Origin: a virus
Direction: 5' to 3' (one strand)
DNA length: 31,972 nt
Virus record (IMG/VR): IMGVR_UViG_3300030118_002271
Coordinates: 472-32,443 of that record
The translations under genes were made by a program, and so were the position numbers. Below the pieces are notes generated by a model. That model saw only the letters and a program-made list of their open reading frames with translations, was not told the origin of the DNA and searched no databases. This document shows, one piece after another, positions 1,663 to 31,604 of this stretch. Position 1 is the stretch's first letter, and each line of letters opens with the position of its first letter.

Positions 1663-1761
1663 ATGCCAAAAGGAATAGGTTACGGTAGTTCCAAGACAAA
1701 ACCTAAGTCTAAAAAAAAGAAAACTACTAAGAAAAAGAAAACCACAAAAAGAATGATGTAA
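1663..1761 (+). CDS. very small lysine-rich protein
   Basis: A 32-residue frame: MPKGIGYGSSKTKPKSKKKK, then two short TTKKKK-like blocks, ending RMM. More than a third of the residues are lysine. It starts on the first base after the terminator's T run and stops 2 bp before the next small basic gene. Short GYGSSK-type basic proteins are found near capsid genes in marine phages; function is unknown, and DNA or capsid binding is only a guess from the charge. Confidence 0.55.
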   Translation: MPKGIGYGSSKTKPKSKKKKTTKKKKTTKRMM

Positions 1762-1763
1762 TT

Positions 1764-2524: not shown

Positions 2525-2526
2525 TT

Positions 2527-5441: not shown

Positions 5442-6208
5442 TGTGTATTTTTGCTGCTCCTTTAGCTGCGGGTGCTGCGGGTGCTGGTGCTGGACTTAGT
5501 TTCGGTGCTGCTGCTGCATTACCATCTTTAGGTGCTGCTGCTGCAATTCCTACATTAGCTGCTCCTGGTTTATTTACTGCTGCGAGTGCAATTCCATTAG
5601 CAAGTACTTTTGCTTTACCAGCTTTAGGTGTTGCAAGTAGTAGTTTTTTAGGGTTAGGTGCTGCTGCAAAGCCATTTTTAGGCAGACAAGTATTAAATTT
5701 AGGTACAAATTTATTAAAAGGTTTTGCACAAAGAAGAGCACTAAACGCACAGGCACAGTACGCATATGAAGCTGCTAGAAAAGGTGCTATAGCTGCTGAC
5801 TTGGCATTTCAAAGAGAGGTAGAAGCTACAGCAGCAAGGTTAAAAGAAGAAAGGGCTTCTGCTGCACAAGAAAAACTTACAGCTACTATAAAAGGACTTA
5901 AAGCAAAGGCAACTATAAGAGCAACAGAAAGAGCAGGTCTTACAATAGATTTACTATTACAAGATGCAGAGAATCAAGCTGCTAACTTAAGGGAAGCAAT
6001 ATCACAAACTATGGAATCACAAACTAATCAATATTCTAGGGATGTACAAGCATTAGAAGCAAAGAGAGATAGTAGATTTAATCAACAAGAAGATATACAA
6101 AATCAAGCATATGTAAATGCACAGAAAGCACCTACACTATTAGATACGGTTGCACAAACAACTAATCAAGGACTACAAGATTACACAACCCTACGACTTT
6201 TAGCATGA
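5441..6208 (+). CDS. internal virion protein, T7 gp14-like
   Basis: A 255-residue protein in two parts. Residues 1-85 are Ala/Gly/Leu-rich and strongly hydrophobic (MCIFAAPLAAGAAGAGAGLS onward), and residues about 90-230 are predicted helical or coiled coil, rich in Ala, Glu, Lys and Gln. T7 gp14 is the ejected protein that forms the outer-membrane pore at the start of DNA entry, and the hydrophobic N-terminus fits that role. The assignment rests on composition and position between gp13-like and gp15-like genes; residue conservation is low. It overlaps the next gene by 4 bp. Confidence 0.8.
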   Translation: MCIFAAPLAAGAAGAGAGLSFGAAAALPSLGAAAAIPTLAAPGLFTAASAIPLASTFALPALGVASSSFLGLGAAAKPFLGRQVLNLGTNLLKGFAQRRALNAQAQYAYEAARKGAIAADLAFQREVEATAARLKEERASAAQEKLTATIKGLKAKATIRATERAGLTIDLLLQDAENQAANLREAISQTMESQTNQYSRDVQALEAKRDSRFNQQEDIQNQAYVNAQKAPTLLDTVAQTTNQGLQDYTTLRLLA

Positions 6209-15068: not shown

Positions 15069-16384
15069 TGGCTACTAACACTACAGCAACAGTTACAAAT
15101 CATACTGGTAACGGAAGTACAAATAATTTTGCAATATCGTTTTCTTTTCTAGCTAATGATGAAGTAGATGTAACAGTTGGAGGTGTATTAAAAACATTAG
15201 ATACACATTACACTATTAGCGGATCAACAGTTACGTTTACGAGTGGTAATACACCTGGTAATGGTGTTGCTGTAAAGTTTCAAAGAGATACAAATATAAG
15301 TACAAAGAAAGTAGATTTTACAGATGGAAGTGTTTTAACAGAAACAGATTTAGATGCTAATGCAGACCAGGTTATATTTGCTCAACAAGAAATTACAGAT
15401 AAATTAAATGGAATAGAAGAAAATGCCACCGCAGATCAGACAGATGCAGAGATAAGAACTGCTGTAGGTAATGCAAGTGACAGTAATATTTTTACAGATG
15501 CACTAAAAAGTAAATTAGATGCAATAGAAGCTAATGCAACCCAAGATCAAACAGCTAGTGAAATAAGAACACTTGTAGAGAGTGCTAGTGATAGCAACGT
15601 GTTTACTGATGCAGACCATACTAAATTAAATAATATTGAAGCTAATGCAACTGCCGATCAAACTAACGCTGAAATAAAGACAGCTTATGAAGCAAACTCC
15701 GATACAAATGCTTTTACTGATGCAGAGAAAACAAAACTAGCAGGTATATCGGCTAGTGCAGGTGCAACTTCATTTGCTGGATTAACAGATACCCCTGCAA
15801 ACTTTAGTGGTGCAGGTGGTAAAACAGTTAAAGTTAACAGTAGTGCAAATGCTTTAGAGTTTGTAGATCAAATATCAGACGTTGTAGGAGATACTACACC
15901 GCAGTTGGGAGGAGATTTAGATGTACAGGCAAGAGAAATAAATACATCTACATCTAATGGCAATATAAAATTAAATCCTAATGGCTCTGGTGCGGTAGAA
16001 GTAAAAGGTGATGGTAGTAGTAATAATGGTAAGTTACAACTTAACTGTTCACAAAATAGTCATGGTGTAAAAGTAGAATCCCCAGATCATTCTGCTGGAC
16101 AGTCTTATACTATGAAGCTGCCTGATAACCAGATAGCAGCAGATAAATTTTTAAAAGTAAAAAGTATTAGTGGATCAGGTGCTACTGCTGTAGGACAATT
16201 AGAATGGGCAGATGGTGGAGGTGGAGCTACAGGTGGAGGTGGTGAAAAGATTTTTCACGAATCTGAGAATCAGATGGATAATGATTATACGATTAGTACA
16301 AATCATAATGCGGTCGTGCCGACACCTCTTACAATCAATGCTACACTTACTGTAGGTTCTGGATCAGTAGTTACTTTTGTATAA
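15068..16384 (+). CDS. tail fibre with T7 gp17-type N-terminal domain
   Basis: A 438-residue protein. Residues about 5-110 (FAISFSFLANDEVDVTVGG, HYTISGSTVTFTSGNTPGNG, VAVKFQRDTNI, LTETDLDANADQVIFAQQE) match the T7 tail-fibre N-terminal domain that attaches to the nozzle. Residues 113-223 are three tandem 37-residue repeats. The distal part has FAGLTDTPANFSGAGGKTVK and a glycine-rich stretch (GGGGATGGGGEK), ending with a short beta segment. The fibre binds the host receptor. It is short compared with T7 gp17 (553), and the following genes probably supply further tip proteins. Confidence 0.92.
   Translation: MATNTTATVTNHTGNGSTNNFAISFSFLANDEVDVTVGGVLKTLDTHYTISGSTVTFTSGNTPGNGVAVKFQRDTNISTKKVDFTDGSVLTETDLDANADQVIFAQQEITDKLNGIEENATADQTDAEIRTAVGNASDSNIFTDALKSKLDAIEANATQDQTASEIRTLVESASDSNVFTDADHTKLNNIEANATADQTNAEIKTAYEANSDTNAFTDAEKTKLAGISASAGATSFAGLTDTPANFSGAGGKTVKVNSSANALEFVDQISDVVGDTTPQLGGDLDVQAREINTSTSNGNIKLNPNGSGAVEVKGDGSSNNGKLQLNCSQNSHGVKVESPDHSAGQSYTMKLPDNQIAADKFLKVKSISGSGATAVGQLEWADGGGGATGGGGEKIFHESENQMDNDYTISTNHNAVVPTPLTINATLTVGSGSVVTFV
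15404..15736 (+). repeat. three tandem 37-residue repeats in the tail fibre
   Basis: Three 111-bp units encode residues 113-149, 150-186 and 187-223. Each has the pattern L-x-x-I-E-x-N-A-T-x-D-Q-T, E-I-(R/K)-T, then S-D-(S/T)-N-x-F-T-D-A ending in K. They diverge at the DNA level, so the duplication is not recent. Such units are found in many phage fibres, probably forming a helical or beta shaft, and can vary in copy number. Confidence 0.9.
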
Positions 16385-17002
16385 ATGGCAATTTCATTAA
16401 ACGGATCTACAAATGTAATAACAGGAGTAGCGGTAGGAGGACTACCAGACGGTATTGTTGATACTGATATGTTAGCTAATAGTGCAGTAAACGCAGCTAA
16501 AGCTACAGGTGGTCGTGATATAAAAATGGCAGATCAATGGAGATATACAGCAGAATTTACTCAAAGTAATACAAGTAATTATTTGGCTACAACTAATTCT
16601 TGGGAAAGACCAGATAGTAAGTTAGGAATAAATTCAAATCCTTTAGGAACTGGGATGACTCAAAGTGGCGGAATATTTACATTTCCTTCAACTGGTTATT
16701 ACTTTATTTTGTTTCATGGTCTTGCAAAAGTTGATAATGATTCTTGTGAAACAAGCGTTTTTATAAGAGCTACAGAGAATAATAGTTCTTATGATAATGT
16801 AGCAAGATCCTTATTCACTATTGCAAATCAATGCACTCCAAACTACGCTGCAAATAGTATTAGTTATTTAGCTAGAGTAACAGATATTTCTAATTATAAA
16901 ATACAATTTAGAGTTAGTAATTCTGGAATTAGCGTTACTTGGATGGGAGAAACTAGTGAAAATAGAATTGCAGCTACTTTTTTAAAATTAGGAGATATTT
17001 AA
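16385..17002 (+). CDS. fibre-associated protein with C1q/TNF-like C-terminal domain
   Basis: A 205-residue protein. The N-terminus MAISLNGSTNVITGVAVGGL is a common attachment segment of marine phage fibre proteins. Residues about 70-205 look like a C1q/TNF-type jelly roll: GGIFTFPSTGYYFILFHGLA, paired short strands, TSVFIRATENN and a final strand RIAATFLKLGDI. Trimeric jelly rolls of this kind often cap fibres and bind receptors. It starts immediately after the tail fibre stop and is overlapped by 1 bp by the next gene. The C1q-like assignment is from pattern recognition only. Confidence 0.72.
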   Translation: MAISLNGSTNVITGVAVGGLPDGIVDTDMLANSAVNAAKATGGRDIKMADQWRYTAEFTQSNTSNYLATTNSWERPDSKLGINSNPLGTGMTQSGGIFTFPSTGYYFILFHGLAKVDNDSCETSVFIRATENNSSYDNVARSLFTIANQCTPNYAANSISYLARVTDISNYKIQFRVSNSGISVTWMGETSENRIAATFLKLGDI

Positions 17003-17361
17003 TGATTTATACAAAATTTAATGCTGTTGATTCATTAAGACCTAAAAAAAGTTGGGTTTGGGAAGGCACAGATTATAGTGGATTTAATTATCAAGGAGAA
17101 GATGCTGCACCAACGGAATCTGAAATAGATGCTGAGGTTACTAGATTAAATAATGAAGAACCTATGAGATTGTTAAGGGTGGAAAGAGATAAAAGGTTAT
17201 CTGTTACTGATTGGAGAGCTAGTTCTGATCTAACACTTTCAGATAATTGGAAAACATATCGTCAAAGTTTGCGTGATTTACCAGCTAGTGCATCGCCTAA
17301 ACTTGATTCAAATGGTAATTTAGATATATCATCTGTTACTTTTCCAACAGAGCCTACATAA
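17002..17361 (+). CDS. tail fibre assembly chaperone-like protein
   Basis: A 119-residue acidic protein. The C-terminal half has LLRVERDKRLSVTDWRASSD and WKTYRQSLRDLPASASP, the signature of the phage tail assembly chaperone-like family (Phage_tail_APC): R-x-x-RD-x-x-L-x-x-TDW, then W-x-x-YRQ-x-LRDLP. Such proteins are common between fibre genes in marine phages and are thought to help fold or attach fibres. It lies between two fibre-type genes with a 1-bp overlap upstream and a 1-bp gap downstream, which fits. Confidence 0.82.
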   Translation: MIYTKFNAVDSLRPKKSWVWEGTDYSGFNYQGEDAAPTESEIDAEVTRLNNEEPMRLLRVERDKRLSVTDWRASSDLTLSDNWKTYRQSLRDLPASASPKLDSNGNLDISSVTFPTEPT

Positions 17362-17362
17362 T

Positions 17363-17965
17363 ATGAGTTCTATTAAACTAAAACATAGCGGTGGTAATTC
17401 AGTAATCATAGCTGCACCAGATAGCAACCCTGCATCTGATCGCACTCTTAAATTACCTAGTAATGCAGATGGAACAGTTTTAACTACAACAAATCCAAAA
17501 TCAGGAAATATTATTCAAGTTGTTTCTACTACAAAAACTGACGCATTTTCTACAACTTCTACTTCTTATACAGATATAACTGGATTATCAATAAATATAA
17601 CACCTTCATCAAGTTCAAATAAAGTATTAGTTGATTTTGTTATAGCTTGTGGAAATAATGCAAGTACACAAAATCGCTTTCAGTTAGTAAGGCAAGTTAG
17701 CAGTTCAGATACAGTTATTAATCCAAGTGCTATGGATTCATCAACTGCAATGTTTGCTGTTGAAGCAGAAGATAATAATAATAATTATAGTAGAGCGCAA
17801 GTTATATACAGATTTTTAGATTCACCTAGCACAACTTCTCAAGTTAATTATAGATTAAGAACTTTAATGTTCAGTAGCAGTTATACTCAATATGTAAATC
17901 GTGCTGCATTTAGTACAAACACTATAGGTTCTTCAACTCTTACAGCACAAGAGGTAGCAGCATAA
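17363..17965 (+). CDS. fibre-type virion protein
   Basis: A 200-residue protein. The N-terminus MSSIKLKHSGGNSVIIAAPD with RTLKLPSNADGTVLTT is a widespread leader of fibre and spike proteins in marine podoviruses and myoviruses. After IIQVVSTTKTDAF, residues 55-200 form a serine- and threonine-rich beta domain (TSYTDITGLSINITPSSSS) that probably trimerises and contacts the host or another fibre. The receptor-binding role is inferred from this context. It ends TAATGG, and a six-codon frame starts within its stop codon (17965-17985). Confidence 0.78.
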   Translation: MSSIKLKHSGGNSVIIAAPDSNPASDRTLKLPSNADGTVLTTTNPKSGNIIQVVSTTKTDAFSTTSTSYTDITGLSINITPSSSSNKVLVDFVIACGNNASTQNRFQLVRQVSSSDTVINPSAMDSSTAMFAVEAEDNNNNYSRAQVIYRFLDSPSTTSQVNYRLRTLMFSSSYTQYVNRAAFSTNTIGSSTLTAQEVAA

Positions 17966-17996
17966 TGGCTATCTCTTATAATTAAGGTAAAACACT

Positions 17997-18326
17997 ATGG
18001 CACTAGATCACGAAGCGATTTATAAAGCATACGCAGGAACAGTTGTTACTATTGATGACTCTGCAGGTGCGTTTGATAAAGATGGTAAGTCAGTCAGCTT
18101 GGATGATAGCCTTGTGGCAAAAGCAAGAACTGATCTAGATGAAGAAGCAGCTAAAGTAAAATACAAAACCGATAGAACAACAAATGGTTCTAAAACGTAT
18201 GACACAATCGGTAATCAATTGGACATGTTGTTTAAAGCAATTGATGCTGATTCAGATTTAAAAACTAAATTTGCTACATGGCACACTCACATAACTGAAG
18301 TAAAAAACGCTAATCCAAAACCATGA
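17997..18326 (+). CDS. conserved virion-associated protein in the fibre cassette
   Basis: A 109-residue protein. The N-terminus MALDHEAIYKAYAGTVVTID is followed by VAKARTDLDEEAAKVKYKTD, TYDTIGNQLDMLFKAID and a C-terminus WHTHITEVKNANPKP. The 'Y-x-x-IG-(D/N)QLDML' and 'VK-x-x-x-PKP' motifs recur in small proteins encoded among fibre genes of marine phages; function unknown, possibly fibre attachment or chaperoning. An AAGG lies about 10 bases before the ATG, one of few visible ribosome sites. It overlaps the next gene by 4 bp (ATGA). Confidence 0.75.
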   Translation: MALDHEAIYKAYAGTVVTIDDSAGAFDKDGKSVSLDDSLVAKARTDLDEEAAKVKYKTDRTTNGSKTYDTIGNQLDMLFKAIDADSDLKTKFATWHTHITEVKNANPKP

Positions 18327-19465
18327 GTGAAATTAAAGTAAATTCGATAAAAGGGGTAGGAGCTAGTACTGCTGCTATTACTGTCAACAATACTGATGGA
18401 ACGTGTACTGCCAATATTACTAATAATCTTAGTAATAGAAACAAGATAATTAATGGTTCGATGATTTGTAGTCAAAGGGGAAGCAGTTTTACTTCTGATG
18501 GATATACTTTAGATCGCTTTGAAAGACAACAAAGCAGCGATGGTGCTTTTACAGTGACACAATCTACTACTTCTCCTGATGGTTTTGCTAACAGTCTAAA
18601 GGTAGATGTGACAACTGCTGATACAAGTTTATCTGCGGCTCAATATGCACAAATTAAATATAAAATCGAAGCACAAGATTTACAAGACTTAGCATTTGGA
18701 ACAAGTGCAGCTAAAAGAATTGTATTGTCATTTTATGTAAGATCAAATAAAACCGGTAATTACGCTTTTGCAATAATGCAAAGTGATAATAGTTTTAAAA
18801 TGGCAAGTTTTCAATATACGATAAATTCTGCTGATACTTGGGAAAGAAAAACAATAATTATTGCTGGAGATACTTCTGGTGTTATTAATAATGATGTTGG
18901 CGATGGATTACTACTTCAATGGGCTTTAGCTGCTGGTAGTAACCTTACAAGTGGTTCATTAAGGTCAACATTTACAACACGAGTTGCTGCTGATCAGTAT
19001 GCTGGACAAGGAGTTAATTTATTAGATTCGACTTCAAACGAATGGTATATAACAGGAGTTCAATTAGAAGTAGATCAAACTGGGTCAGGCGTGGCAACAG
19101 ATTTTGAGCATAGGTCATTTGCTGAGGAGATTCAGTCTTGTTACAGGTATTATTATCATATAAAAGACAGTCAGTTGTTTGGCGGAAGAGCTGCAACAAG
19201 TGGTACGAGAGCAAAATGGACTATGATGACACCTGTTCCGCTTAGAGCAAGTCCTACTATAAATACTTCGCCCTTTGGTGACACTTGGAGTGCTACAGGA
19301 TATAAGTATAACAACAGTTCTACTTCTACTACTGTGCCAACTGTTAATGAATATCTTCAAAATTCCTGTCATATTTGTTTTAGTCAATTAGGACATTCTT
19401 TAGACGATGATCGAAATTTTACATGGCAAGCCAATGTTGATCTGGCGTTAGACGCTGAACTTTGA
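18323..19465 (+). CDS. fibre or tip protein with jelly-roll carbohydrate-binding-like domain
   Basis: A 380-residue protein. It starts MSEIKVNSIKGVGASTAAIT, then SNRNKIINGSMICSQRG and YTLDRFERQQ, a strongly recurring motif of marine phage tail proteins. Residues about 75-250 form a beta-sandwich resembling carbohydrate-binding modules (RIVLSFYVRSNKTGNYAFAI, NEWYITGVQLEVDQTGSGVA), followed by FEHRSFAEEIQSCYRYYYHI and a C-terminal beta domain to residue 380. It probably binds surface glycans at the fibre tip. It overlaps its upstream neighbour by 4 bp. The tail role is well supported by motif memory and context; ligand unknown. Confidence 0.78.
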   Translation: MSEIKVNSIKGVGASTAAITVNNTDGTCTANITNNLSNRNKIINGSMICSQRGSSFTSDGYTLDRFERQQSSDGAFTVTQSTTSPDGFANSLKVDVTTADTSLSAAQYAQIKYKIEAQDLQDLAFGTSAAKRIVLSFYVRSNKTGNYAFAIMQSDNSFKMASFQYTINSADTWERKTIIIAGDTSGVINNDVGDGLLLQWALAAGSNLTSGSLRSTFTTRVAADQYAGQGVNLLDSTSNEWYITGVQLEVDQTGSGVATDFEHRSFAEEIQSCYRYYYHIKDSQLFGGRAATSGTRAKWTMMTPVPLRASPTINTSPFGDTWSATGYKYNNSSTSTTVPTVNEYLQNSCHICFSQLGHSLDDDRNFTWQANVDLALDAEL

Positions 19466-19476
19466 TTTTTAAGATT

Positions 19477-19653
19477 ATGATTTTTACTTACAAATTTTTA
19501 GCATACGATTCATCAGATCCTAATGAAGATAAATTTCCATCTGTCCTAAGAAAAGAAGATGGTGCTTGTATTCCATGTGATCCTGATAACAGCGACTATC
19601 AAGAGTACCTTAAGTGGGTAGAAGAGGGAAATACAGCCGAAGCTGCTGATTAA
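19477..19653 (+). CDS. small fibre-cassette protein, possible assembly chaperone
   Basis: A 58-residue acidic protein starting MIFTYKFLAYDSSDPNEDKF. The core VLRKEDGACIPCDPDNSDYQ and EYLKWVEEGNTAEAAD follows a pattern (IP-x-D-x-x-NSDY-x-x-YL-x-W-x-x-EGN) found in small proteins and C-termini near phage tail fibre genes. A TTG at 19462 could extend it by five codons; the ATG at 19477 is preferred. It is the last gene of the + strand module, and its stop codon overlaps the stop of the - strand gene at 19650. Confidence 0.68.
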   Translation: MIFTYKFLAYDSSDPNEDKFPSVLRKEDGACIPCDPDNSDYQEYLKWVEEGNTAEAAD

Positions 19654-19907
19654 TTACATTTCCATTTTTTAAGAGCTAACCCTTTTCTTGTTAGCTTACC
19701 GCCTTTACTGGTTGCACCTTTAACACCTTTCATTCTTGCACAAAAAGATTTACGTCTTTTAGCAGCTTTACTACCAGGTTTAACTTTTCCTGTTACTGGT
19801 GCTTTAAGGTTACTACCTGTTTCTCTATTAATTTTATCTCTACCTTTTTTAGTAAGACCACCAGTTTTACTTTTGTGTTCTTTACGTAGCCTTACAGATT
19901 TAGCCAT
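19650..19907 (-). CDS. small basic conserved head-region protein
   Basis: An 85-residue very basic protein with SKTGGLTKKGRDKINRETGS, LKAPVTGKVKPGSKAAKRRK and SFCARM-KGVKGATSKGG, ending LALKKWKCN. I recall this sequence pattern as a conserved small protein (DUF6321-type) of marine and freshwater phages, often next to structural genes; function unknown. Its start overlaps the scaffold stop codon, so it is co-transcribed with portal and scaffold. It is the last gene of the - strand run and abuts the + strand module with no room for a separate terminator. Confidence 0.8.
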   Translation of the reverse strand: MAKSVRLRKEHKSKTGGLTKKGRDKINRETGSNLKAPVTGKVKPGSKAAKRRKSFCARMKGVKGATSKGGKLTRKGLALKKWKCN

Positions 19908-20740
19908 TAGTTAGATATACCAAATACGTTACTTTCAGCTAATCTTCTTTGTACTTCATGTTGAAAAGCAATATCAGTTTTATATCTAGGATCTCTCATA
20001 GCAGCTACTACTTCAGCATTAGATCTAAATACCTTTGTATTAGGACTAGAAGAAGTCTGACCACTAATTAATTTAGGTTCTACACCCATTGCATTTCTAT
20101 ACCTGGTAAACATTTTTTGCACAGCAAGAGTAACTTGTGGAATGTTTCTTTTTTCAGCATCTACAATTTTATCAAACTCTTGTAATTCTTCTTTAGGTAT
20201 ATTGCCATCCATCCATTGCAGCATTTCTAAATATTTTTCTTCACCACCTGCAATACCTACAATATCTTCATACTCAGGAAAAGAAGGATCAGCAGCAGGT
20301 TGTGTGCCCTCTTGTGGCTGCAAGCCATTAAGATAGCTATCTATAAGGTTACGAGGTAAACCTGTCTGTTCTAGCTGCTTGTAGTGCTCTTCTGTAATAG
20401 TTCCGTTGTTTTCCTGGTAATGTTTATTAATAGCAAAAGGATCTATTTCACTTTGTTCAAATAGTTCTCCTAATTTTTCTCCATACTGTTGTCTTGCAAG
20501 GTCATAATTTACAGAACCATCTTCCTTATATTCAACTACTTCTTCTGCTACTGGTTCTTCTTTAGTCTTTGCAACATCACCTAGCTTACCTTCTAACTCT
20601 TTATAGCTTGCAGCTAGATCTTCTACACTATTAAACTTACCTAAAATCTTACCGTTCTCAGATGTGTTTTCATCAGCATACTTCTGCAAGTCATCTTGTG
20701 ACATTGGAGGAGTTTCGTTTGATTGTAAAGATGCTTTCAT
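19907..20740 (-). CDS. capsid scaffold (assembly) protein, T7 gp9-like
   Basis: A 277-residue acidic, helical protein. Residues 8-60 include MSQDDLQKYADENTSENGKI and ILGKFNSVEDLAASYKELEG, typical of T7-like scaffolds. The middle is Glu- and Gln-rich (EDIVGIAGGEEKYLEMLQWM). The C-terminus is basic (PRYKTDIAFQHEVQRRLAES), the end that contacts the shell in this family. It directs capsid polymerisation and leaves the head before DNA packaging. It follows portal in T7 order, but the capsid gene that should come next is on the other strand at 633. Confidence 0.92.
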   Translation of the reverse strand: MKASLQSNETPPMSQDDLQKYADENTSENGKILGKFNSVEDLAASYKELEGKLGDVAKTKEEPVAEEVVEYKEDGSVNYDLARQQYGEKLGELFEQSEIDPFAINKHYQENNGTITEEHYKQLEQTGLPRNLIDSYLNGLQPQEGTQPAADPSFPEYEDIVGIAGGEEKYLEMLQWMDGNIPKEELQEFDKIVDAEKRNIPQVTLAVQKMFTRYRNAMGVEPKLISGQTSSSPNTKVFRSNAEVVAAMRDPRYKTDIAFQHEVQRRLAESNVFGISN

Positions 20741-20746
20741 AATTTT

Positions 20747-20905
20747 TTAGTTCATAGTAATAGTATTACCATTAGCAGTAATTTTTTCAACTGGCTCGCT
20801 AGGTTCTGGTGTATCGTTAACACCTAAACTACTTACAATAGCTTTTGCTTCTGTAGTTTCTTTAGACGGTTTGTTGTCCTTCTTGGGTGATTTGCTGGTT
20901 GGCAT
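20747..20905 (-). CDS. small acidic protein between portal and scaffold
   Basis: A 52-residue frame beginning MPTSKSPKKDNKPSKETTEA and ending KITANGNTITMN. It starts inside the portal gene in another frame (44-bp overlap) and ends 6 bp before the scaffold ATG, filling the gap exactly. The N-terminal half is basic and the C-terminal half acidic. No homologue is recognised. The tight fit between two structural genes supports it being real, but chance is not excluded. Confidence 0.5.
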   Translation of the reverse strand: MPTSKSPKKDNKPSKETTEAKAIVSSLGVNDTPEPSEPVEKITANGNTITMN

Positions 20906-22466
20906 TTGGTGTTACCTCATTTTGTAATAGTTGTGCTTCTGCTTGATTTTTAGGATCAAGTAATTTATGACCCTGTAATGCAGATGGAGCTAAGTCCTTG
21001 AGTAGTTGTTGCTGTTGTTCAGCTTGCAACTCTTGGGCTATTTCTTCTTTTGATTTTATCAAATTTAAAGTTTCTATACCAACGCTATTAGCTAACCTAA
21101 TAATTGCTTCATCTATATTCATATATCTTCTCATTACATCTACACCTAATGCTTGAGCTATCGTGCCTATAAACTCTATAAGTTTCTGTTTATCAGCATC
21201 CCTTCCTAAGCCATTTATACCTGTAACTATTTTAGGTCGTACTAATTTATCAGGTAATTTCGGTGCTTTACCTGCCCTTATAAGTAGATGTAATTTTCTA
21301 CGTAAATATTTTATTTGAAACTCACTACTTAATACAGAATAAATCCCTCCTAACGTAGCTTCTAAAGCATTACTCATTATCTGTATCTCAGTACTGGTAA
21401 CACGTTCTGCATCCCTTTGTATGCTCTTTGTCATAAGAAAAGCATCTTCTAATCTTTTTTCTATAGTTTGTTTTGCCTGGAAAGCTACAGCAAAATCATT
21501 ACCTTTGTTTGTTTGCAAGGTAGTAACATCAGTAGATAGTCCTTCTCTTACTGCACCATTAGGTGCATGACTTACAGCTTTAGCAGAAGTTACACCATTA
21601 GGATTTATAAAATATACTGTACGTGCAGATGCAGCAGCACCTTCTATTATTGCTTGCATCAATGCTTCTAAGCTAATTAGATCTCCTTTATATTCATTTA
21701 CATATGAAGTACCATAATTAGTATCAGTTTGAGTCCAACGTAAAACAATAAAAGGTGATACATCAACAGGAGAGATACCATCAGTACCAGGTATTTTTTC
21801 ACCCCTGCACTCTTGAAACCATACATGATTATTACCTTGACGTTCTACTTTTGTATATATATCTATTTCTGCATCTTCCATTGAATCTGCGTCATAGTTT
21901 TCTTTTTGTTTTATTTGTTCAAAAAATTCTGGATCTAATGCTTTTGTAGATACAGACTCCTTTGTAATTATTGTCAATACATTACCTACCTCATCCCTTT
22001 GTACGACATAACGATCTAAATAATAAACCTTTAATCCATCTTCAGTTATGTATAACAACACATTACCTACAACAATTAAATGTTTTAGAGCTTCAAACAT
22101 AGCTACTCTATCGTTGCTGGTTTCTATATCTGCCATCACAGCATTTTCTAAACTACGTAAACCTTTATCTATCTCAGCCATTATTTCAGACTGTCCACTT
22201 TTTTGTAGTTCTAATTCATCAATTATTAATTTAAAGAATGGTGTGTTAGGTGGTATTAAAGCCATCAACATTTTTGCTGCAAGGCTATTAGTACCAGCAG
22301 CACCAAGAGCTTGGTATGGTGTTTTTATTTTTTGTTTTTTTGCAGAATTATTATTAAATAAACTAGGTATTGTTAATTTTGCACAGTCATCACCATCACG
22401 TTCATATGATGATCTATCAACTGTCAGAATGTTATATAAACTTTCTGCTGTTTTTTGTGTTTCCAT
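20862..22466 (-). CDS. portal (head-tail connector) protein, T7 gp8-like
   Basis: A 534-residue protein, close to T7 gp8 (536). Recognisable segments are LGAAGTNSLAAKMLMALIPP near residue 52, LYITEDGLKVYYLDRYVVQR, TSYVNEYKGDLISLEALMQA, and the conserved DAERVTSTEIQIMSNALEAT stem near residue 352. The C-terminus is Gln-rich. Twelve copies form the DNA channel at one capsid vertex. It is transcribed leftward toward scaffold, as in T7. An additional small frame begins in its last 44 bp. Confidence 0.95.
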   Translation of the reverse strand: METQKTAESLYNILTVDRSSYERDGDDCAKLTIPSLFNNNSAKKQKIKTPYQALGAAGTNSLAAKMLMALIPPNTPFFKLIIDELELQKSGQSEIMAEIDKGLRSLENAVMADIETSNDRVAMFEALKHLIVVGNVLLYITEDGLKVYYLDRYVVQRDEVGNVLTIITKESVSTKALDPEFFEQIKQKENYDADSMEDAEIDIYTKVERQGNNHVWFQECRGEKIPGTDGISPVDVSPFIVLRWTQTDTNYGTSYVNEYKGDLISLEALMQAIIEGAAASARTVYFINPNGVTSAKAVSHAPNGAVREGLSTDVTTLQTNKGNDFAVAFQAKQTIEKRLEDAFLMTKSIQRDAERVTSTEIQIMSNALEATLGGIYSVLSSEFQIKYLRRKLHLLIRAGKAPKLPDKLVRPKIVTGINGLGRDADKQKLIEFIGTIAQALGVDVMRRYMNIDEAIIRLANSVGIETLNLIKSKEEIAQELQAEQQQQLLKDLAPSALQGHKLLDPKNQAEAQLLQNEVTPNANQQITQEGQQTV

Positions 22467-22983: not shown

Positions 22984-23736
22984 TCAAAACGTAGGATTCC
23001 ATAGCTTAACTTCTCCTGTAGTGTAGTCATAATCACCCTCTCTTAGTATTCTTACAAGTCGAGCATTTAATATAGCATCAGAAATACCATTACCTTTCTT
23101 TTCATAAGTTTTTACAACTTGATTCCACATAGATTCTAAGTCTTTACTACTGTCTAAAAGTTTATTAGCTGATACCATACCTAAACCTTTTATACCTGGA
23201 ACACCATCTGTAGCGTCACCTGCTATTGTCATAGCCATAAAATTTCTATCCGCTTGTGATTTTGTTATTAGTTCTAATGTGTCACCTGCCAATAGTAGTC
23301 CTGGTATAGTTCTCATGTCTTTATCTACAGAGACTATAACTGGTTCATCATATCTACCATTTGTACTGAGCAAACCTAATACGTCATCACCTTCTAAATT
23401 AGGATAACTAATAGATTTATAAGTATCTTTTACTTCTTTAATAACATTATGTAAACCTAACGGATGTCTTTTATCTATTCTGTTTAATTTGTATTCTGTA
23501 AATATTTCATGTCTAAAAGTTGGGTAACTTGTAAAACACATAATAAGATCATCACTACCTTTATAACCTTCTGTCTGTAAGACATTTAGATAATATTTTA
23601 TTTTAAAATCTATCATGCTCATTGCTTCACGTTCATCCATTATTAGTTGATGGTTATATCTGTCGTATCTAATATCATGTTGAGCAGCACAGCAACAAGA
23701 ATAGATTAAGTAATCTGCGTCAATAAGTAATGTCAT
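22984..23736 (-). CDS. 5'-3' exonuclease, T7 gp6-like (flap endonuclease family)
   Basis: A 250-residue protein with the metal-binding motifs of the FEN/5'-3' exonuclease family in order: TLLIDADYLIY (2-12), YPNLEGDDVLGLLS (about 111-124), VIVSVDKDMR (about 133-142), and GDATDGVPGIKGLGMVSANK (about 173-192), the last being the helix-hairpin-helix region. In T7 gp6 removes RNA primers and degrades host DNA to nucleotides. Its start overlaps the helicase stop codon (TAATG), leaving no space for the DNA polymerase gene normally found between them. Confidence 0.93.
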   Translation of the reverse strand: MTLLIDADYLIYSCCCAAQHDIRYDRYNHQLIMDEREAMSMIDFKIKYYLNVLQTEGYKGSDDLIMCFTSYPTFRHEIFTEYKLNRIDKRHPLGLHNVIKEVKDTYKSISYPNLEGDDVLGLLSTNGRYDEPVIVSVDKDMRTIPGLLLAGDTLELITKSQADRNFMAMTIAGDATDGVPGIKGLGMVSANKLLDSSKDLESMWNQVVKTYEKKGNGISDAILNARLVRILREGDYDYTTGEVKLWNPTF

Positions 23737-25358
23737 TAGAAAAAATTAGGTAGTGCTCTAAGTCGAGAAGTTTCAGAGTCGTACAACAACTTATCTACTT
23801 CTCCTGTCATTCCTGTATGCCTGGATTTTAATATCTTCATTTGCAGTTGTGACCTTTCATCAGCAGAGTTAGATAACTGATTTCTTACTAGAGATATGCA
23901 TAAATCACTCATCTGTACTAATCCATGAGATCCACGAAAATCTCTTAAACTTACCTCCGCACCTTCTTCATGTCCTTTACCATCAGGTCTGCGTAAGTGA
24001 GTGACTACAAGTAAACAGATATTAGTTTCTTCTATAAGACTACGTAGTTTTGTAGATAATATGTCTAAACTTTTTCTCTCGTCATTATTTTCTATGCCAG
24101 AAACAACTATAGATATATGGTCTAGTATCACTACATCTACACCATCTGTAGTAGCTAGGTTTCTTATCTGCGATAGTAATATATCAGGTTCTATACTGCC
24201 AAAATGATTATATAAATAAAGACTTCGTGTACCTGTTAATTTATCAAATGCAGCTTTTACAGCAGTTTTATCTATAGCGTCCTGTTTTAGATGTAGAGGT
24301 GTGTTTAAGTCAATAGAAACTAATCTCATTAGTGACCGTTGTACTGACTCTTCTAGGGCTATATAACCTACTTTTAGACCACTCTTAAGAAAGTGACTAG
24401 CAAACTCTCCGCATAATGTAGATTTACCTGCACCACTACCTGCTGCTATAGCAACCATTTGCGTAGGAAATAAACCGCCAGTAAATTTATTCAATTCTGG
24501 ATATGGATAATCACATATAGGTTTACTTGTCTCTTTACTAAATAAATCCCAAGCATCAGCAGCATTTATAATATGATCTGTTCTACAAGGTTGTGCTTTC
24601 CATAAAATATCTTTTAGTTCTTCTCCACGTTTTGCTACTAATAAATCATTAACGTCATTTATATCATCAGGTAATCTTGCTATCGCAGCTTTACCTTTAG
24701 GTAATACTTTTAGTGCTTTATCTGCACCAACTTCACCAGCATTATCATTATCAAAACAAATTACAGACCTACAAAATTTATTTATAAATTCATATTCTTT
24801 TGATAAATATTTAGCTGCTGACTGTACACCAGAAGGAACTGATACACAAGGAAAGCGGTGATTAAAAATTTGACTAGCTGCCATGCAATCAATTTCGCCT
24901 TCAAAAATTGATAAGAAAATATCTCCTGTATTTTGTATTCTGCAATTTATCTGACCATATAACTGCACCTGACTTATATCACCTATCCATATAAATTTTT
25001 TGTTAGCAAACCTTATATGTTGAGCTATATCTATACCTTGACTATTTTGATATGTTGCTACCTGGCATTGCTGACCTTTGTATTCACTAACACCATATTT
25101 GAATAGTTCGCAAGTCTCTTTAGTGATTCCACGTTTAGGTAAGTCGGTGTATGTAACAGGTAATAGTTTCACTTCTTTTTTAAATACTGGTTGTTGTATA
25201 GGTTTTGGAATAAATTTTTTTTGTGGTTTTTTATCTGGGTAATAACTGTAATCACAGTCAACAGAAAAACAATAAGCATGACCATCATCAAACCAAGCTA
25301 AATTATCTTTTGATTTACATTGTGGGCACTCAGTTTTTTTTACATACTTGCTTTGCAT
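23736..25358 (-). CDS. DNA primase/helicase, T7 gp4-like
   Basis: A 540-residue fusion. An N-terminal zinc ribbon has Cys11, Cys14, Cys30 and Cys35 (CPQC...CFSVDC). A TOPRIM primase core follows with IFEGEIDCMAAS near 155 and VICFDNDNAGEVGADK near 200. The RecA-type helicase domain begins near 275, with Walker A GSGAGKST (Lys312), VILDHISIV as Walker B, and LLVVTHLRRPDGKGHEEG and DFRGSHGLVQMSD further on. The length is close to T7 gp4 (566). It unwinds DNA and makes RNA primers at the fork. The gene order is endonuclease, small frame, helicase, exonuclease. Confidence 0.95.
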   Translation of the reverse strand: MQSKYVKKTECPQCKSKDNLAWFDDGHAYCFSVDCDYSYYPDKKPQKKFIPKPIQQPVFKKEVKLLPVTYTDLPKRGITKETCELFKYGVSEYKGQQCQVATYQNSQGIDIAQHIRFANKKFIWIGDISQVQLYGQINCRIQNTGDIFLSIFEGEIDCMAASQIFNHRFPCVSVPSGVQSAAKYLSKEYEFINKFCRSVICFDNDNAGEVGADKALKVLPKGKAAIARLPDDINDVNDLLVAKRGEELKDILWKAQPCRTDHIINAADAWDLFSKETSKPICDYPYPELNKFTGGLFPTQMVAIAAGSGAGKSTLCGEFASHFLKSGLKVGYIALEESVQRSLMRLVSIDLNTPLHLKQDAIDKTAVKAAFDKLTGTRSLYLYNHFGSIEPDILLSQIRNLATTDGVDVVILDHISIVVSGIENNDERKSLDILSTKLRSLIEETNICLLVVTHLRRPDGKGHEEGAEVSLRDFRGSHGLVQMSDLCISLVRNQLSNSADERSQLQMKILKSRHTGMTGEVDKLLYDSETSRLRALPNFF

Positions 25359-25434
25359 TTTGCCAATCTTTAATAAGTCGTTTTAATTCAGAAATGCGTT
25401 TCCTAGCATATTTAATTTTATCTTTAGTTTGCAT
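25330..25434 (-). CDS. tiny basic helical protein between endonuclease and helicase
   Basis: A 34-residue frame (MQTKDKIKYARKRISELKRL, then IKDWQNAKQVCKKN). It overlaps the endonuclease end by 11 bp and the helicase start by 29 bp and fills the only gap between them. It is predicted as one basic amphipathic helix. No family is recognised. Translation could serve to couple the two larger genes, but the frame may also be fortuitous. Confidence 0.45.
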   Translation of the reverse strand: MQTKDKIKYARKRISELKRLIKDWQNAKQVCKKN

Positions 25435-25792
25435 ACCAATCGTCAGGAATAAATTTATCGCAATATTTAAACCCATGTCTCGTACACCATTTGGCATACG
25501 AGATAGAGTTTTTAGCTTTAGATAATTTAGTTTTGCTGTTTTGAAAACAGAATCTAATATCTAGTTCGGGTCTAGCCTTCTTGATAATAAGATGCTTTCT
25601 TCTGTCCTCTTTTGAGAAGTACCCCTTTGTTTCAACAATAAAATTGTCGAGGATAAAATCAGGCTTGTAGCAGCAAGTAATTTCATAATCTATTTCAAGA
25701 GATTCATAGGTAAATACAATTTTGTTTTTGTTTAGTTTAGTAGCAAATTCTTTTTCAAACTTGCTTTTGTACTTATTACCAATCACTTGCAC
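25424..25792 (-). CDS. endonuclease I (Holliday junction resolvase), T7 gp3-like
   Basis: A 122-residue protein with the PD-(D/E)xK core: SKFEKEFATKL (candidate Glu15), CCYKPDFIL (Asp45), and NFIVETKGYF (Glu54, Lys56), in the order and near the spacing of T7 gp3 (Glu20, Asp55, Glu65, Lys67). The C-terminal part has NSISYAKWCTRHGFKY, also seen in this family. T7 gp3 resolves branched DNA and helps break down the host chromosome. It overlaps the SSB gene by 17 bp and lies just after it, as in related phages. Confidence 0.9.
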   Translation of the reverse strand: MQVIGNKYKSKFEKEFATKLNKNKIVFTYESLEIDYEITCCYKPDFILDNFIVETKGYFSKEDRRKHLIIKKARPELDIRFCFQNSKTKLSKAKNSISYAKWCTRHGFKYCDKFIPDDWYAN

Positions 25793-26477
25793 TTGCTGGT
25801 TGTTTTATAGGTTGACCTGGTTCATCATCATGGCTATTAAAAGTTACATTTTGTGTAACAGGTTTAAATCCCATATCTTCTGGTGATGACATTCCATCCC
25901 AAGCTACAAAGTTTCTAACTATTACAGAAACAGGTTGTATTCTTAAACCTACTTCATCTAATTCAAAACCTTGCACACGTAAATATGCTTGACCTCTTGA
26001 CTCAGGACTTATTTTATCAAACTTTGCTGACTCATCCCTTGTAAGAAAAACTACTTTATCACCTACTTGTTGTGCAAATTTTGGTGGTGGTAATTCAAAT
26101 TCAGCACCTTGTTTATTAGTTCTTTTACCACTAGGCATACGACAATATACTTCTAATCCTTGTTCTGTTATTTTCCAATATTCTTTAGGTGCTCCATCTT
26201 TTGTACGTGACCAGGTAAATTTTTTATCTGGATTTTCTCTACGTAATTGGTCTTTCCAATCAATTTTATATTGTTCTAATTTATTAACCATAAACTCTAC
26301 TGAGTTTTGTGGTTCTGTTCCTGGCAATCCTATATCAGCAGGTATAAATGTATCGTCTGGTTTAAATACAAGTGTTAGCTGATAGTATCCATACTTAGGT
26401 TCTGGTTTATATAACCATGCATAAGTTAAGTTTGCATAAGGTGTTGTCAACATTAAAGTTGGTGCTTTGCTTCCCAT
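25776..26477 (-). CDS. single-stranded DNA-binding protein, T7 gp2.5-like
   Basis: A 233-residue protein with an OB-fold-like body (TPYANLTYAWLYKPEPKYGY, YQLTLVFKPDD, KDGAPKEYWKITEQGLEVYC, VRNFVAWDGMSSPEDMGF) and a polar, acidic tail ending DEPGQPIKQPASASDW. T7 gp2.5 also ends in acidic residues plus a terminal aromatic residue that contacts polymerase and helicase; here the last residues are Asp-Trp. The assignment is by layout and position directly after RNA polymerase. It is the first gene after a gap holding a candidate phage promoter and a hairpin. Confidence 0.87.
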   Translation of the reverse strand: MGSKAPTLMLTTPYANLTYAWLYKPEPKYGYYQLTLVFKPDDTFIPADIGLPGTEPQNSVEFMVNKLEQYKIDWKDQLRRENPDKKFTWSRTKDGAPKEYWKITEQGLEVYCRMPSGKRTNKQGAEFELPPPKFAQQVGDKVVFLTRDESAKFDKISPESRGQAYLRVQGFELDEVGLRIQPVSVIVRNFVAWDGMSSPEDMGFKPVTQNVTFNSHDDEPGQPIKQPASASDW

Positions 26478-26562: not shown

Positions 26563-28896
26563 TCAACTAAATACATATGGTGCATTGATTATATGATTTA
26601 AATCAAAGTTACCTAATGGTTTTAGGTTTTTATATAACTCACATCTATTAGACCAGGTATATAAATTTACTAAATTTTTCTTTACTTGTTTTATAAATGG
26701 TTCTATTTCTTGTGCGTTAGCAGCAAAACTATCATGTATAGTAACTAAACTTTTAAATCCTTTTGCTTTATATACTTCTGATAATGCTAAATGTACGTTA
26801 GCTGCGTCATAACTATGTACAAAATTAGGTGTAATACTATTTCTTATTTTCTTTTTATCTAATGTTTTAGTGTCGTATGTATAACATAACCATAAACTAG
26901 ACTCATTAAATTTTGTTCTTACCTGTTTAGATTCTTTTATATAATAATTTTGTTCAACAATAAAACCTGATGGTGTAGTCCATGTTGTAGCTTGACTATC
27001 TTTTAAATAATCCATTACATATTTACAAGAAGGAAATATTTGATCTAATGCAGTTCTTATTTGTTTTACTAAAAAATGTAAATGACTATTTGTTATATTG
27101 TCATTCCATTTTTTTGTTTCTAAATAATTAATCATACCAAAATCTGTTCCACCGTAAGGGATCATAAGAATTGGTTTTTTTATTCTGTTTCTATCTAAGT
27201 TTTTATCATTTAATAAATCCTTACATTTTCTTGTATCAGAAAAATTAAATCGTGACATATAATTTAAATTATATCTTAGTTTTTCTAACACTAAGCTATA
27301 AAGATCTTGTCTATTGCCTTTAGTTAGGTTAGTAGCTACAGCTAACTTCTCATCTTTTGTAAGGCAAGCTATATGTTGATAAGCATTATTAGTACCATCT
27401 AAATGTATAGGTAAACCAGTTTTATAATTACTATCATCCATATATTTTTTATATTCCAAACACCATGCAAGAAACTGAAATGGTTTATTTGCTTTACTCC
27501 ATAAGGTTACGTTACCTATAGGATCACTAGCAATTTGTTTTGCATATCTACTACCAGTATTTCTTACCCATGCACTACGTTCCATAAAAGATGCACCATC
27601 ATTAGTCCATAAGTTATAACCTGCTATTTGAAACCATTTCATACTGTAGTCTGTATAGCTTAGAGAAACAGGCTCATCAAACAAATGTAGTGACCTGGCT
27701 AAATCATTACCTTGTGGATTTAGATGTGGTGTAACGCAATATAATCGTCCTCTAAAGTCCGATTGAAATACATGGTAGAAAGTTTTATCTATATATTTTT
27801 CAGCAATATTAATAATAGATAATATCAATAATCTCTTAGATCTTATGCTTGCGTTATAGTCATGTACTTTTGCAGCTTCGTATCTATATTTATCTCTAGC
27901 TACTTTATTTGTATCTATATCATGCGGTTTTGGTGGCAATGGCATAGGTTCGCAGTCAAGAATATCACTTTTGTTATCAAACAATTCTTTTACTATCTTT
28001 AAAATATCTTTATTTATGATCCAACCTACTTCTTGCAATGCATTTACAGCATTATAAAAATCTACAGGATTAGCTTTATCTAATTTATGCAAAAAGTTTT
28101 TATTTTTAGTCTTAACAATATCTAATTTAGATAAACGTGGTGTATGATAACCACCATCAAAAGGATTAGTCCATTTTCTAGGTTTTATAATGCATGGTTG
28201 ATAATAAGGTACAGCAATATTTTTATTCATTTTTTGATTATTAATCCATTCAATAGCACTATCAGTAAGTTGTAGATATTTATTTGTGCTCTTACTACTA
28301 CCTTTAGTTCTAACAACAGTTGTAGTTAATTTTATAGATGACTGTATAATCTCTACTAATTTTGCCCCTATGCGTAATTTATCTTCCTGTTTCCAACCTT
28401 CAAAAATATGATTTGATTTATTCATATGGTGTATTAATACTTTACGTCTATATCTGCTATGCCTGGTATCTCTTAAATGATGTTTTATATCGTGAAAATA
28501 TTTTTTATCACATTCTTCATAAAAACAATACCTTAATTCGTCTTCTAATCTAGTTCCTATTTGTATTGCTACTGAATTGAATGTTCTTTTATTCCATGCT
28601 GTAGCACCATCTAGTATTACTTTTAAAGCTATAAAACTTACTACATATAAATCATCAAACTCACTTAATAAATTTGCAGTTCTTGACTTACGACCTGCTT
28701 TACCTGACTTTGCATATTTTATAAATGCACTTAATTTTTTTGTTACCTTTTCTATTCCACAATAAATAATTCCTCTGCTGTAATCATTTTCACTTTCTTT
28801 ACCTTGCTTTTTATTTGTTTCTCTTATTTTATTTAATCGACTTATACCTAAATCGACCATACTGTTTTCTAGTTCTACTTGATCTTCATAATTCAT
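26563..28896 (-). CDS. single-subunit DNA-dependent RNA polymerase, T7 gp1-like
   Basis: A 777-residue polymerase of the T7 class. Catalytic motifs are intact: motif A LPIHLDGTNNAYQH with Asp500 (T7 Asp537), motif B KKPILMIPYGGTDFG with Lys573 and Tyr581 (T7 Lys631, Tyr639), and motif C VTIHDSFAANA with Asp722 (T7 Asp812). It ends PYVFS, recalling the conserved aromatic C-terminus FAFA of T7. It is about 100 residues shorter than T7 RNA polymerase, mostly in the N-terminal region. It transcribes the middle and late genes from phage promoters. Its start overlaps the integrase gene by 11 bp, so the two share a transcript. Confidence 0.97.
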   Translation of the reverse strand: MNYEDQVELENSMVDLGISRLNKIRETNKKQGKESENDYSRGIIYCGIEKVTKKLSAFIKYAKSGKAGRKSRTANLLSEFDDLYVVSFIALKVILDGATAWNKRTFNSVAIQIGTRLEDELRYCFYEECDKKYFHDIKHHLRDTRHSRYRRKVLIHHMNKSNHIFEGWKQEDKLRIGAKLVEIIQSSIKLTTTVVRTKGSSKSTNKYLQLTDSAIEWINNQKMNKNIAVPYYQPCIIKPRKWTNPFDGGYHTPRLSKLDIVKTKNKNFLHKLDKANPVDFYNAVNALQEVGWIINKDILKIVKELFDNKSDILDCEPMPLPPKPHDIDTNKVARDKYRYEAAKVHDYNASIRSKRLLILSIINIAEKYIDKTFYHVFQSDFRGRLYCVTPHLNPQGNDLARSLHLFDEPVSLSYTDYSMKWFQIAGYNLWTNDGASFMERSAWVRNTGSRYAKQIASDPIGNVTLWSKANKPFQFLAWCLEYKKYMDDSNYKTGLPIHLDGTNNAYQHIACLTKDEKLAVATNLTKGNRQDLYSLVLEKLRYNLNYMSRFNFSDTRKCKDLLNDKNLDRNRIKKPILMIPYGGTDFGMINYLETKKWNDNITNSHLHFLVKQIRTALDQIFPSCKYVMDYLKDSQATTWTTPSGFIVEQNYYIKESKQVRTKFNESSLWLCYTYDTKTLDKKKIRNSITPNFVHSYDAANVHLALSEVYKAKGFKSLVTIHDSFAANAQEIEPFIKQVKKNLVNLYTWSNRCELYKNLKPLGNFDLNHIINAPYVFS

Positions 28897-29734
28897 TAGC
28901 CATACCTACATACTTATGTAAATCGTCAGGTGAAAAGTGTGCATATGCCATAGTTTGCTCTAATTTGTTATGACCTACCCATTTACTAACTATAGGTATT
29001 GGTATTCCTTTCATAATCATTCTTTTTATTGCAGTATGACGCAATATATGAATAGTAAAAGTCTTATCTTTACCTTTACCTAGATCAGTTCTAACCTTAT
29101 CCCATCCTTTATCTAACCAAAACCAGTTATAAGGAAATATACGTTCATTATCTTCCTTCCATTCTGCATACAAACTAATAATTTCCATACATTTATCAGT
29201 CATAGGTACAGCAATAGGATTATTACATTTTCTTTTTTCAAATAATATCTGTTTTCTATCAAAATTAATATCTCTTTTTTTTAAACCTAATAGTTCTCCT
29301 GATCTACATCCTAGTTCTAACAATACCTGGCATATATCTTTATGCTCTATAAAACCTAATAGTTTAAATTTATTCCATAGTTCAATAATTTCATTATCAT
29401 TCAAATGTGGAATAACTCTTTTAGTTCTAGGTAAATTGCGAGGAAAAGTTATATTAGTTTTATAACCTTCTTCGGCCATAGTTTTTAAAGTGGATTTTAA
29501 ATATCCAGTTCGCATATTTATAGTATCGTTAATATTTTTTTCTACGTTTTTACCGTAGTCTATTAACTTACTTACATCCTTAGATGTAATTTGATCTATC
29601 TTTTTATTACCTAAGATAGCTATGCATTGCTTTATCAGTCTTATGTACTGACTAGCGGATTCCTGACCGTTTTTATATCGGCCATAATGAGTCATCATTG
29701 CTTCATGCAATGTAGGGATTTTAGTTTTTGGCAT
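28886..29734 (-). CDS. int: tyrosine site-specific integrase
   Basis: A 282-residue tyrosine recombinase. The N-terminal SAM-like core-binding domain covers about 10-100 (SASQYIRLIKQCIAIL). The catalytic domain shows ELGCRSGELLGLKKRD with Arg144, HILRHTAIKRM with His229 and Arg232, VGHNKLEQTMAYAHF with His255 and nucleophile Tyr264. All visible key residues are present, so it should be active. It implies integration into the host chromosome. Its position directly upstream of RNA polymerase matches integrase-carrying pelagiphages and some cyanopodoviruses. No attP with tRNA similarity could be identified nearby. Confidence 0.95.
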   Translation of the reverse strand: MPKTKIPTLHEAMMTHYGRYKNGQESASQYIRLIKQCIAILGNKKIDQITSKDVSKLIDYGKNVEKNINDTINMRTGYLKSTLKTMAEEGYKTNITFPRNLPRTKRVIPHLNDNEIIELWNKFKLLGFIEHKDICQVLLELGCRSGELLGLKKRDINFDRKQILFEKRKCNNPIAVPMTDKCMEIISLYAEWKEDNERIFPYNWFWLDKGWDKVRTDLGKGKDKTFTIHILRHTAIKRMIMKGIPIPIVSKWVGHNKLEQTMAYAHFSPDDLHKYVGMANEL

Positions 29735-30947: not shown

Positions 30948-31604
30948 TTACTTATTACCTAAATAGTTAGCATTAACCTGTACAGGCATAATTAAAAAGG
31001 TTACGTTAGTTTCCTCTAACCTATTAAAATCTAATTCTGATTTAAAGATAACCGGTGATGTAGGTTTATTAGAAAATAAAGTGCTAACTTTATTACTACC
31101 TAAATACTTATGAATAGCATTAAAGTATAAACCTAAGTACTGACTATTAAAGCCAATACCATTACCAGGCAAGCAATCTAATTTGTCAGGTATTAACTGA
31201 CTTGTATCAGGATAAGTAGCATTAACCTTTTCATAAGTACTAAATGACTTATTAGTAGCATGCCACACTTGAAAAGTATTATCACTATAAAAATCTACAT
31301 TAGTAGCTTTTATATCTGATTTATTAAAATGATCCTTATGTATCAAGATAGATTTATCATAAGAAAAATCATAAAAATCATTTATACTACCTTCCCATCT
31401 AAATAAATAGTGCCCATTAGTTGACTCTATAACAATAGAATTAGTTTTTTCTACTTTATAGCAGTTAATGTACTGTAAAACGTGCCTACTTTCATCCTTA
31501 CTTGCAAACTTACTAGCTAGATGTAGCACTTGATAAGGCAATTTGGCCTGGATGATAGCTTTATCATTAATAGAGACTTTATTCTCTAATACTGTTGAAG
31601 TCAT
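30948..31604 (-). CDS. sliding-clamp-like protein (DNA polymerase III beta-related), shortened
   Basis: A 218-residue protein that matches motif by motif the second half of bacterial DnaN. Residues 38-46 ESRHVLQYI followed by STNGHYLFRW (61-70) correspond to the domain II pattern 'TR-x-VL-x-G ... ATDGHRLA'. FSTYEKVNATYPDTSQLIP (121-139) corresponds to 'KLIDGxFPDYxRVIP'. GIGFNSQYLGLYFNAIHKYL (149-168), SPVIFKS (183-189) and FLIMPVQV (203-210) correspond to the domain III end 'GFNxxYLxDxLxAL ... PV ... YVxMPMRL'. Domain I and the first half of domain III appear absent. Bacterial clamps have about 370 residues. A role as phage clamp, or as a decoy for host clamp partners, is possible. Confidence 0.72.
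   Translation of the reverse strand: MTSTVLENKVSINDKAIIQAKLPYQVLHLASKFASKDESRHVLQYINCYKVEKTNSIVIESTNGHYLFRWEGSINDFYDFSYDKSILIHKDHFNKSDIKATNVDFYSDNTFQVWHATNKSFSTYEKVNATYPDTSQLIPDKLDCLPGNGIGFNSQYLGLYFNAIHKYLGSNKVSTLFSNKPTSPVIFKSELDFNRLEETNVTFLIMPVQVNANYLGNK

Follow-up and report, generated by a model that had tools for sequence, protein, structure and literature searches.

T7-like phages carry gene 5, encoding the DNA polymerase gp5, between the primase/helicase and exonuclease genes. The stretch of viral DNA analysed here (the window; 31,972 nucleotides, bases 472-32443 of the linear-classed, 32,443-bp IMG/VR record IMGVR_UViG_3300030118_002271) has nothing at that spot, which raises the question of what copies this phage's genome. 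A sequence-only reading had proposed that the gene either lies outside the window or is truly missing, and that in the latter case the phage would depend on a host polymerase, in keeping with a clamp-like protein encoded at 30948-31604.

Helicase and exonuclease genes abut in the window and its relatives

Positions 23734-23738 read CATTA on the plus strand and TAATG on the minus strand, and the helicase open reading frame (ORF; 25358-23736) and exonuclease ORF (23736-22984) overlap there by the one base 23736, the helicase stop running into the exonuclease start as first read. The identities of both genes also held: the gp4-like primase/helicase (23736..25358, minus strand; 540 aa with Toprim and DnaB_C domains) matches phrog_239 (E 3e-150), and the gp6-like 5'-3' exonuclease (22984..23736, minus strand; 250 aa) matches phrog_107 (E 2e-49).

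Scanning IMG/VR with the window helicase returned 33 loci, of which 2 are without the exonuclease end and 31 hold both genes. The helicase directly abuts the exonuclease in all 31, with junctions of -4 to +2 bases (+2 in P-SCSP2, -4 in P-SCSP1u), compared with helicase-exonuclease distances of 2.2-4.3 kb in 6/6 polymerase-bearing T7-like phages (for T7 the start was extrapolated; with the annotated one the distance is about 4.2 kb). Four separate records (L001-L004), with helicases 99% identical to that of the window, have the identical TAATG. The 31 tight junctions, these four included, exclude an assembly deletion at 23736.

Absence of a DNA polymerase gene

The family A polymerase domain (PF00476) was not found anywhere in the 32,443-bp record, in agreement with the earlier statement that no A-type frame appears in the 32 kb, and families B and C (PF00136, PF07733) are absent from this record and were found in 0/8 records searched. 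The PF00476 result is informative because the same search matches all six polymerase-bearing phages (T7, P-SSP7, HTVC119P, Bylgja, CRP-227 and S28-C10) of an 18-record panel; it matches 0/12 of the remaining panel records. Among the 21 records behind the related loci, P-SCSP2 and P-SCSP1u included, PF00476 was likewise detected in none; many of these are fragments, so this negative counts mainly for the longer records, namely G001 (35.2 kb), G002 (38.6 kb) and the two isolates. Hence gp5, the DNA polymerase of the T7-like gp4-gp5-gp2.5 replisome, was not found in the window's record. The sole polymerase gene detected in the window encodes a T7-like single-subunit RNA polymerase (26563..28896, minus strand; 777 aa; phrog_414, E 8e-176; PF00940, E 3e-61).

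Two relatives cover the part of the genome that the window lacks. The first, G002, is probably a complete genome, although labelled linear, since its ends share an exact direct repeat of 79 bp. Its genes include those for terminase, integrase, RNA polymerase, helicase, exonuclease, portal and capsid; PF00476 was not found in it, and the unassigned ORFs between terminase and integrase reach 202 aa at most. The second, the contig G001, is nearly identical to the window; there the terminase gene (L053:12137-13858) lies about 1.2 kb past the clamp gene (L053:10296-10955), and no other ORF >151 aa follows from there to the contig end. Judged from G001, the terminase sits just beyond the window's right end, which bears out the earlier view that the terminase is missing and the window is not the full genome. 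The proposed relocation of the polymerase gene to the missing part is not supported by the comparison: G001 and G002 hold the terminase, but neither has PF00476, and neither has in that part an unassigned ORF large enough for a polymerase. The same profile check, negative for PF00476 in G002 and for families A, B and C in the record itself, supports the other branch of the proposal, true absence, as do the 31/31 junctions and a published hallmark of the lineage described below. An assembly deletion or a polymerase gene beyond the window is thus extremely improbable; the record is indeed incomplete, with no terminase anywhere in it, but the junction recurs identically in L001-L004 and similarly in 27 further loci, and the probably complete G002 has no polymerase.

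A phage-encoded polymerase that has diverged beyond the reach of every profile is also very unlikely. This option is left open in PMC9860041, and several window ORFs (16385-17002, 17363-17965 and 17997-18326) matched no Pfam family. Against it, the unassigned early ORFs between the window's assigned genes are at most 80 aa, the corresponding maximum in the terminase-integrase stretch of G002 is the 202-aa ORF, and two very large window ORFs lie at the internal virion protein position and are partly similar to P-SCSP2 proteins there.

An incomplete genome of the MPP-C kind

Apart from the polymerase, the early region retains a T7-type gene set. The minus strand encodes, in order, the clamp-like protein, small ORFs, a tyrosine integrase (28886..29734; 282 aa; PF00589, E 2e-18), the RNA polymerase, a probable gp2.5-like single-stranded DNA-binding protein (SSB; 25776..26477; 233 aa), a gp3-like endonuclease I (25424..25792; 122 aa; PF05367, E 1e-35), the helicase, the exonuclease, a portal (20862-22466) and a scaffold (19907-20740; portal and scaffold together, 19907..22466). 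The SSB, with the C-terminus SASDW, is a homologue of a P-SCSP2 gene matching phrog_112, and itself had no PHROG match. The overall early and replication gene order is shared with T7, P-SSP7, HTVC119P, Bylgja, CRP-227 and S28-C10; unlike the window, T7 and these marine relatives have gene 5 between gene 4 and gene 6 (6/6), and no clamp gene (0/6).

The plus-strand capsid-to-fibre block (633..19653) occupies the same place as in P-SCSP2 but in the opposite orientation, and early and late genes therefore point towards each other near 19650 (block 633-19653 versus 19650-31604). Because the same opposed orientation occurs in G001, G002, L020 and L027, the inversion is not an artefact of one assembly. 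A 1129-aa protein at a virion position (window 6205-9594) contains a LysM domain (residues 902-944).

Cyanopodoviruses without a DNA polymerase gene were described in 2022 as MPP-C (Prochlorococcus phages P-SCSP2 and P-SCSP1a-u; PMC9860041), and several lines of evidence place the window among them. Like MPP-C phages, it has a T7-like gene set without a DNA polymerase and an exonuclease directly after the helicase. Nearest named records to its helicase are an uncultured Mediterranean phage (61.4% identity), P-SCSP2 (58.7%) and the P-SCSP1 phages (48.7%); compared with P-SCSP2, the capsid is 89.9% and the helicase about 59% identical (59.3% or 58.7%), and both phages have an integrase. In a tree of concatenated portal, capsid and two tail-tube proteins (14 genomes, 1,731 columns, with MPP-A/B represented by P-SSP7 alone), the window, G001, G002 and P-SCSP2 grouped with 100% bootstrap, and the node adding P-SCSP1u as sister had 63% support. 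Published MPP-C traits include genomes of 37.3-37.9 kb, no auxiliary metabolic genes and Prochlorococcus MED4 as host (PMC9860041). The window's incomplete record is 32.4 kb and G002, at 38.6 kb, is slightly larger than the published range; no auxiliary metabolic genes were found among 19 window proteins scanned with Pfam; and a Prochlorococcus host would follow for the window phage from kinship only. The window thus comes from an uncultured, T7-like ocean cyanophage, its genome covered in part, of the polymerase-less MPP-C kind described before, and the absence of the polymerase is itself a published trait of MPP-C rather than a new one. MPP-C phages account for almost half of surface-ocean cyanopodovirus reads according to PMC9860041, which leaves their replication mechanism open among host Pol I, host Pol III and an unrecognisable polymerase.

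Two differences separate the window from the isolates: the block inversion relative to P-SCSP2, and a clamp gene detected by profile in the window and in neither P-SCSP2 nor P-SCSP1u. We note that P-SCSP2 (L034) contains an unannotated endonuclease I ORF (5206-5628) 83.6% identical to that of the window; section 6 of PMC9860041 states that P-SCSP2 is without a recognisable endonuclease. P-SCSP2 also encodes an ArdC-type anti-restriction protein (L034, 35301-36251; PF08401 and PF18818) between terminase and integrase, and G002 has a homologue (3737-4720); this gene lies roughly at the position of the clamp gene in the window's clade.

A clamp-like protein with the predicted fold of DnaN

The proposed clamp-like protein (30948..31604, minus strand; 218 aa) was confirmed as such by predicted structure. 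An AlphaFold2 model built from 16 homologues (mean pLDDT 68.8, which is middling; pTM 0.74) was matched by Foldseek to bacterial DnaN clamps in 50/50 listed PDB rows, with probability 1.00, and by VIA-align to DnaN clamps with Z scores up to 14.7 (193 residues, 4.2 A), including Z 12.5 to E. coli DnaN residues 118-366 (180 residues, 3.9 A). The protein is thus predicted to fold like a bacterial DnaN clamp, and its predicted strands are consistent with three beta-alpha-beta repeats. No phage clamp loader was found among the proteins scanned.

Sequence profiles agree at lower strength. The dnaN profile TIGR00663 matches at E 4e-7, with 29.5 bits against a curated cut-off of 137.65, so we call the protein clamp-like, without claiming DnaN orthology. 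It also matches phrog_3007 (E 2e-17) along almost its entire length; this family in turn matches 9/14 control genomes, all nine of them bacterial and the matched genes presumably dnaN. The family is named 'RusA-like resolvase' in PHROG, yet it behaves as a DnaN clamp family, and the name looks wrong. Plain sequence comparisons were not significant, which leaves TIGR00663, phrog_3007 and the fold as the basis of the clamp assignment: a PDB sequence search with the single protein gave no match, a PDB search with the clamp profile gave unrelated weak matches only (best E 0.26), a profile comparison against E. coli DnaN gave a probability of 0.4%, and pairwise scores of the window protein against E. 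coli DnaN fell within shuffled noise (reached by 76 and 116 of 500 shuffles). Pfam PF02767 was detected in just 2/16 family members (best E 0.053). For the N-terminal half of the homologous clamp of Synechococcus phage S-SRP02, 5/500 shuffles reached the score against E. coli DnaN.

In the TIGR00663 alignment, residues 30-141 map to positions 141-251, and residues about 150-209 to 318-366. By this alignment the protein would comprise domain II and the second half of domain III, and lack domain I and the first half of domain III, in contrast to the three domains of bacterial DnaN. MAFFT placed the C-terminal part at the start of DnaN domain III; the TIGR00663 placement, with which a local match (IGFN..Y; not significant alone) agrees, was tentatively preferred. 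With the DnaN pocket residues listed in PMC11139829, 9/18 E. coli residues are identical in the window protein in the MAFFT alignment, which is doubtful in domain III; in the same alignment T172, G174, H175, P242, M362 and P363 are identical in 17/17 aligned phage sequences. The fold and the T-x-G-H and M-P motifs are shared with bacterial DnaN and with short clamps of Burkholderia phage AH2 and Pantoea phage LIET2.

Shortening of this kind could also suit a decoy, a protein that occupies the clamp-binding motifs of host proteins and shuts down host replication or redirects its enzymes, with no ring formed round phage DNA. A decoy would be consistent with pocket residues kept while domain I and half of domain III are missing by profile alignment, and the host clamp is a known target of phage proteins such as Twort Gp168 (PMC11139829). 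It is nevertheless an unlikely role: the best viral-library matches are phage proteins of about 180-215 aa, several of them named Pol III beta subunits, and a phage without its own polymerase has no gain from disabling that of its host.

Distribution of the clamp and of SSB ends

TIGR00663 recovered the clamp in G000 only among 22 records, missing G001 and others, and phrog_3007 was used instead. With this family the clamp was detected in 9/18 panel records (the window, G001, S-SRP02 and G020-G025), corresponding to 9/12 polymerase-less versus 0/6 polymerase-bearing records; this is an association and not a statistic, as it stems from about two lineages and several fragments (G021-G024, 11-21 kb), and as the S-SRP02-type contigs were gathered via their clamp, their share of the nine says nothing on clamp frequency. 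A profile built from the clamps gave the same split over 12 phage genomes; it did not reach the E. coli dnaN control gene. By phrog_3007, no clamp was found in G002, P-SCSP2 or P-SCSP1u. The clamp gene sits between terminase and integrase in both lineages that have it.

The second of these lineages is represented by the freshwater phage S-SRP02 (PMC8790148), whose clamp is 29.7% identical to that of the window over 94%. Its placement in the tree was poorly supported (43% and 29%). Like the window, S-SRP02 is without a family A polymerase. Its record (L047) has a gene at 22389-23129 annotated as 'DNA polymerase I', a product also listed in PMC8790148; the 246-aa protein has two 5'-3' exonuclease domains only, and PF00476 is absent from the genome, so we rejected it as a polymerase. 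Unlike the window, S-SRP02 is also without a DnaB_C helicase, and both DnaB_C and family A polymerase are absent from six further contigs with similar clamps. Truncation is an unlikely cause in G020 and G025, since these are 43 kb, near the size of S-SRP02, and carry terminase, capsid, portal and RNA polymerase genes.

The ends of the SSB proteins differ between these groups. In bacteria, the SSB tip DDDIPF is a docking site for replication proteins, and the end EEIPF or EDIPF of the four S-SRP02-type records read (EEIPF in S-SRP02; also G020, G025 and L060) resembles it. The SSBs of the window's clade end in SDW, among them those of all 8 records that showed both a clamp and an SSB end; those of clamp-less polymerase-less relatives end in DF or EEF.

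A host polymerase as the probable copying enzyme

Dependence on a host polymerase is reached by elimination, from the absence of a polymerase gene. We consider it probable that this MPP-C-kind, T7-like phage has lost gene 5 and has its DNA copied by a host polymerase, most likely polymerase III, tethered by the phage clamp. The phage keeps its RNA polymerase, probable SSB, endonuclease I, primase/helicase and exonuclease, the last two now abutting. The primase/helicase would open and prime the DNA, the SSB would help to ready the template, and host polymerase III, or possibly another host polymerase, would synthesise phage DNA. The clamp, with several kept DnaN pocket residues for clamp-binding peptides, would tether the host enzyme to phage DNA, and clamp-less members would use the host clamp. 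In this scheme we infer the use of a host polymerase, its identity, ring formation and the role of the clamp. Loss of an acidic helicase tail would be expected with loss of the partner, but no clear contrast was seen: the last 20 helicase residues carry a net negative charge of 0-2 in 8 phages without a polymerase and of 1-7 in 6 with one, and these ranges overlap. The earlier suggestion that the clamp fits dependence on a host polymerase stands in part; the predicted fold supports a clamp, but P-SCSP2, P-SCSP1u and G002 are polymerase-less without one, and the clamp is therefore not strictly needed.

The polymerase borrowed might instead be host DNA polymerase I, modified for processive synthesis, with the clamp-like protein tethering it or doing otherwise. 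Pol I belongs to family A and is homologous to gp5, it is among the three options in PMC9860041, and one clamp pocket can bind several polymerases (PMC11139829). We regard Pol I as improbable, somewhat more so than the decoy role, because it is chiefly a repair enzyme according to PMC9860041, and because loss of both helicase and polymerase in the S-SRP02 group, with a bacterial-type SSB tip, points to the whole host replisome and not to Pol I alone.

More tentatively, host polymerase III tethered by a phage clamp could reflect a direct exchange, in which the polymerase was swapped for a minimal three-repeat clamp that recruits host Pol III, and the S-SRP02 group came to rely on the host replisome entirely, dropping the helicase and adopting a bacterial-type SSB tip; this extended version is a possibility we hold with considerable doubt. 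At three beta-alpha-beta repeats per subunit, four subunits would reach the 12 that make up a normal clamp ring.

In the articles searched, we found neither a clamp in this sister group nor the joint lack of polymerase and helicase in S-SRP02-type phages. The word 'clamp' has no occurrence in PMC9860041 and one in PMC10575957, about the portal valve.

As reinterpreted here, S-SRP02 suggests that the polymerase, and even the helicase, can be lost from T7-like phages, and it calls for caution, as an annotation of 'DNA polymerase I' may mean a 5'-3' exonuclease only. For MPP-C, a phage clamp in a close sister group offers a concrete, testable handle on the hypothesis that host Pol III copies the DNA of these phages.
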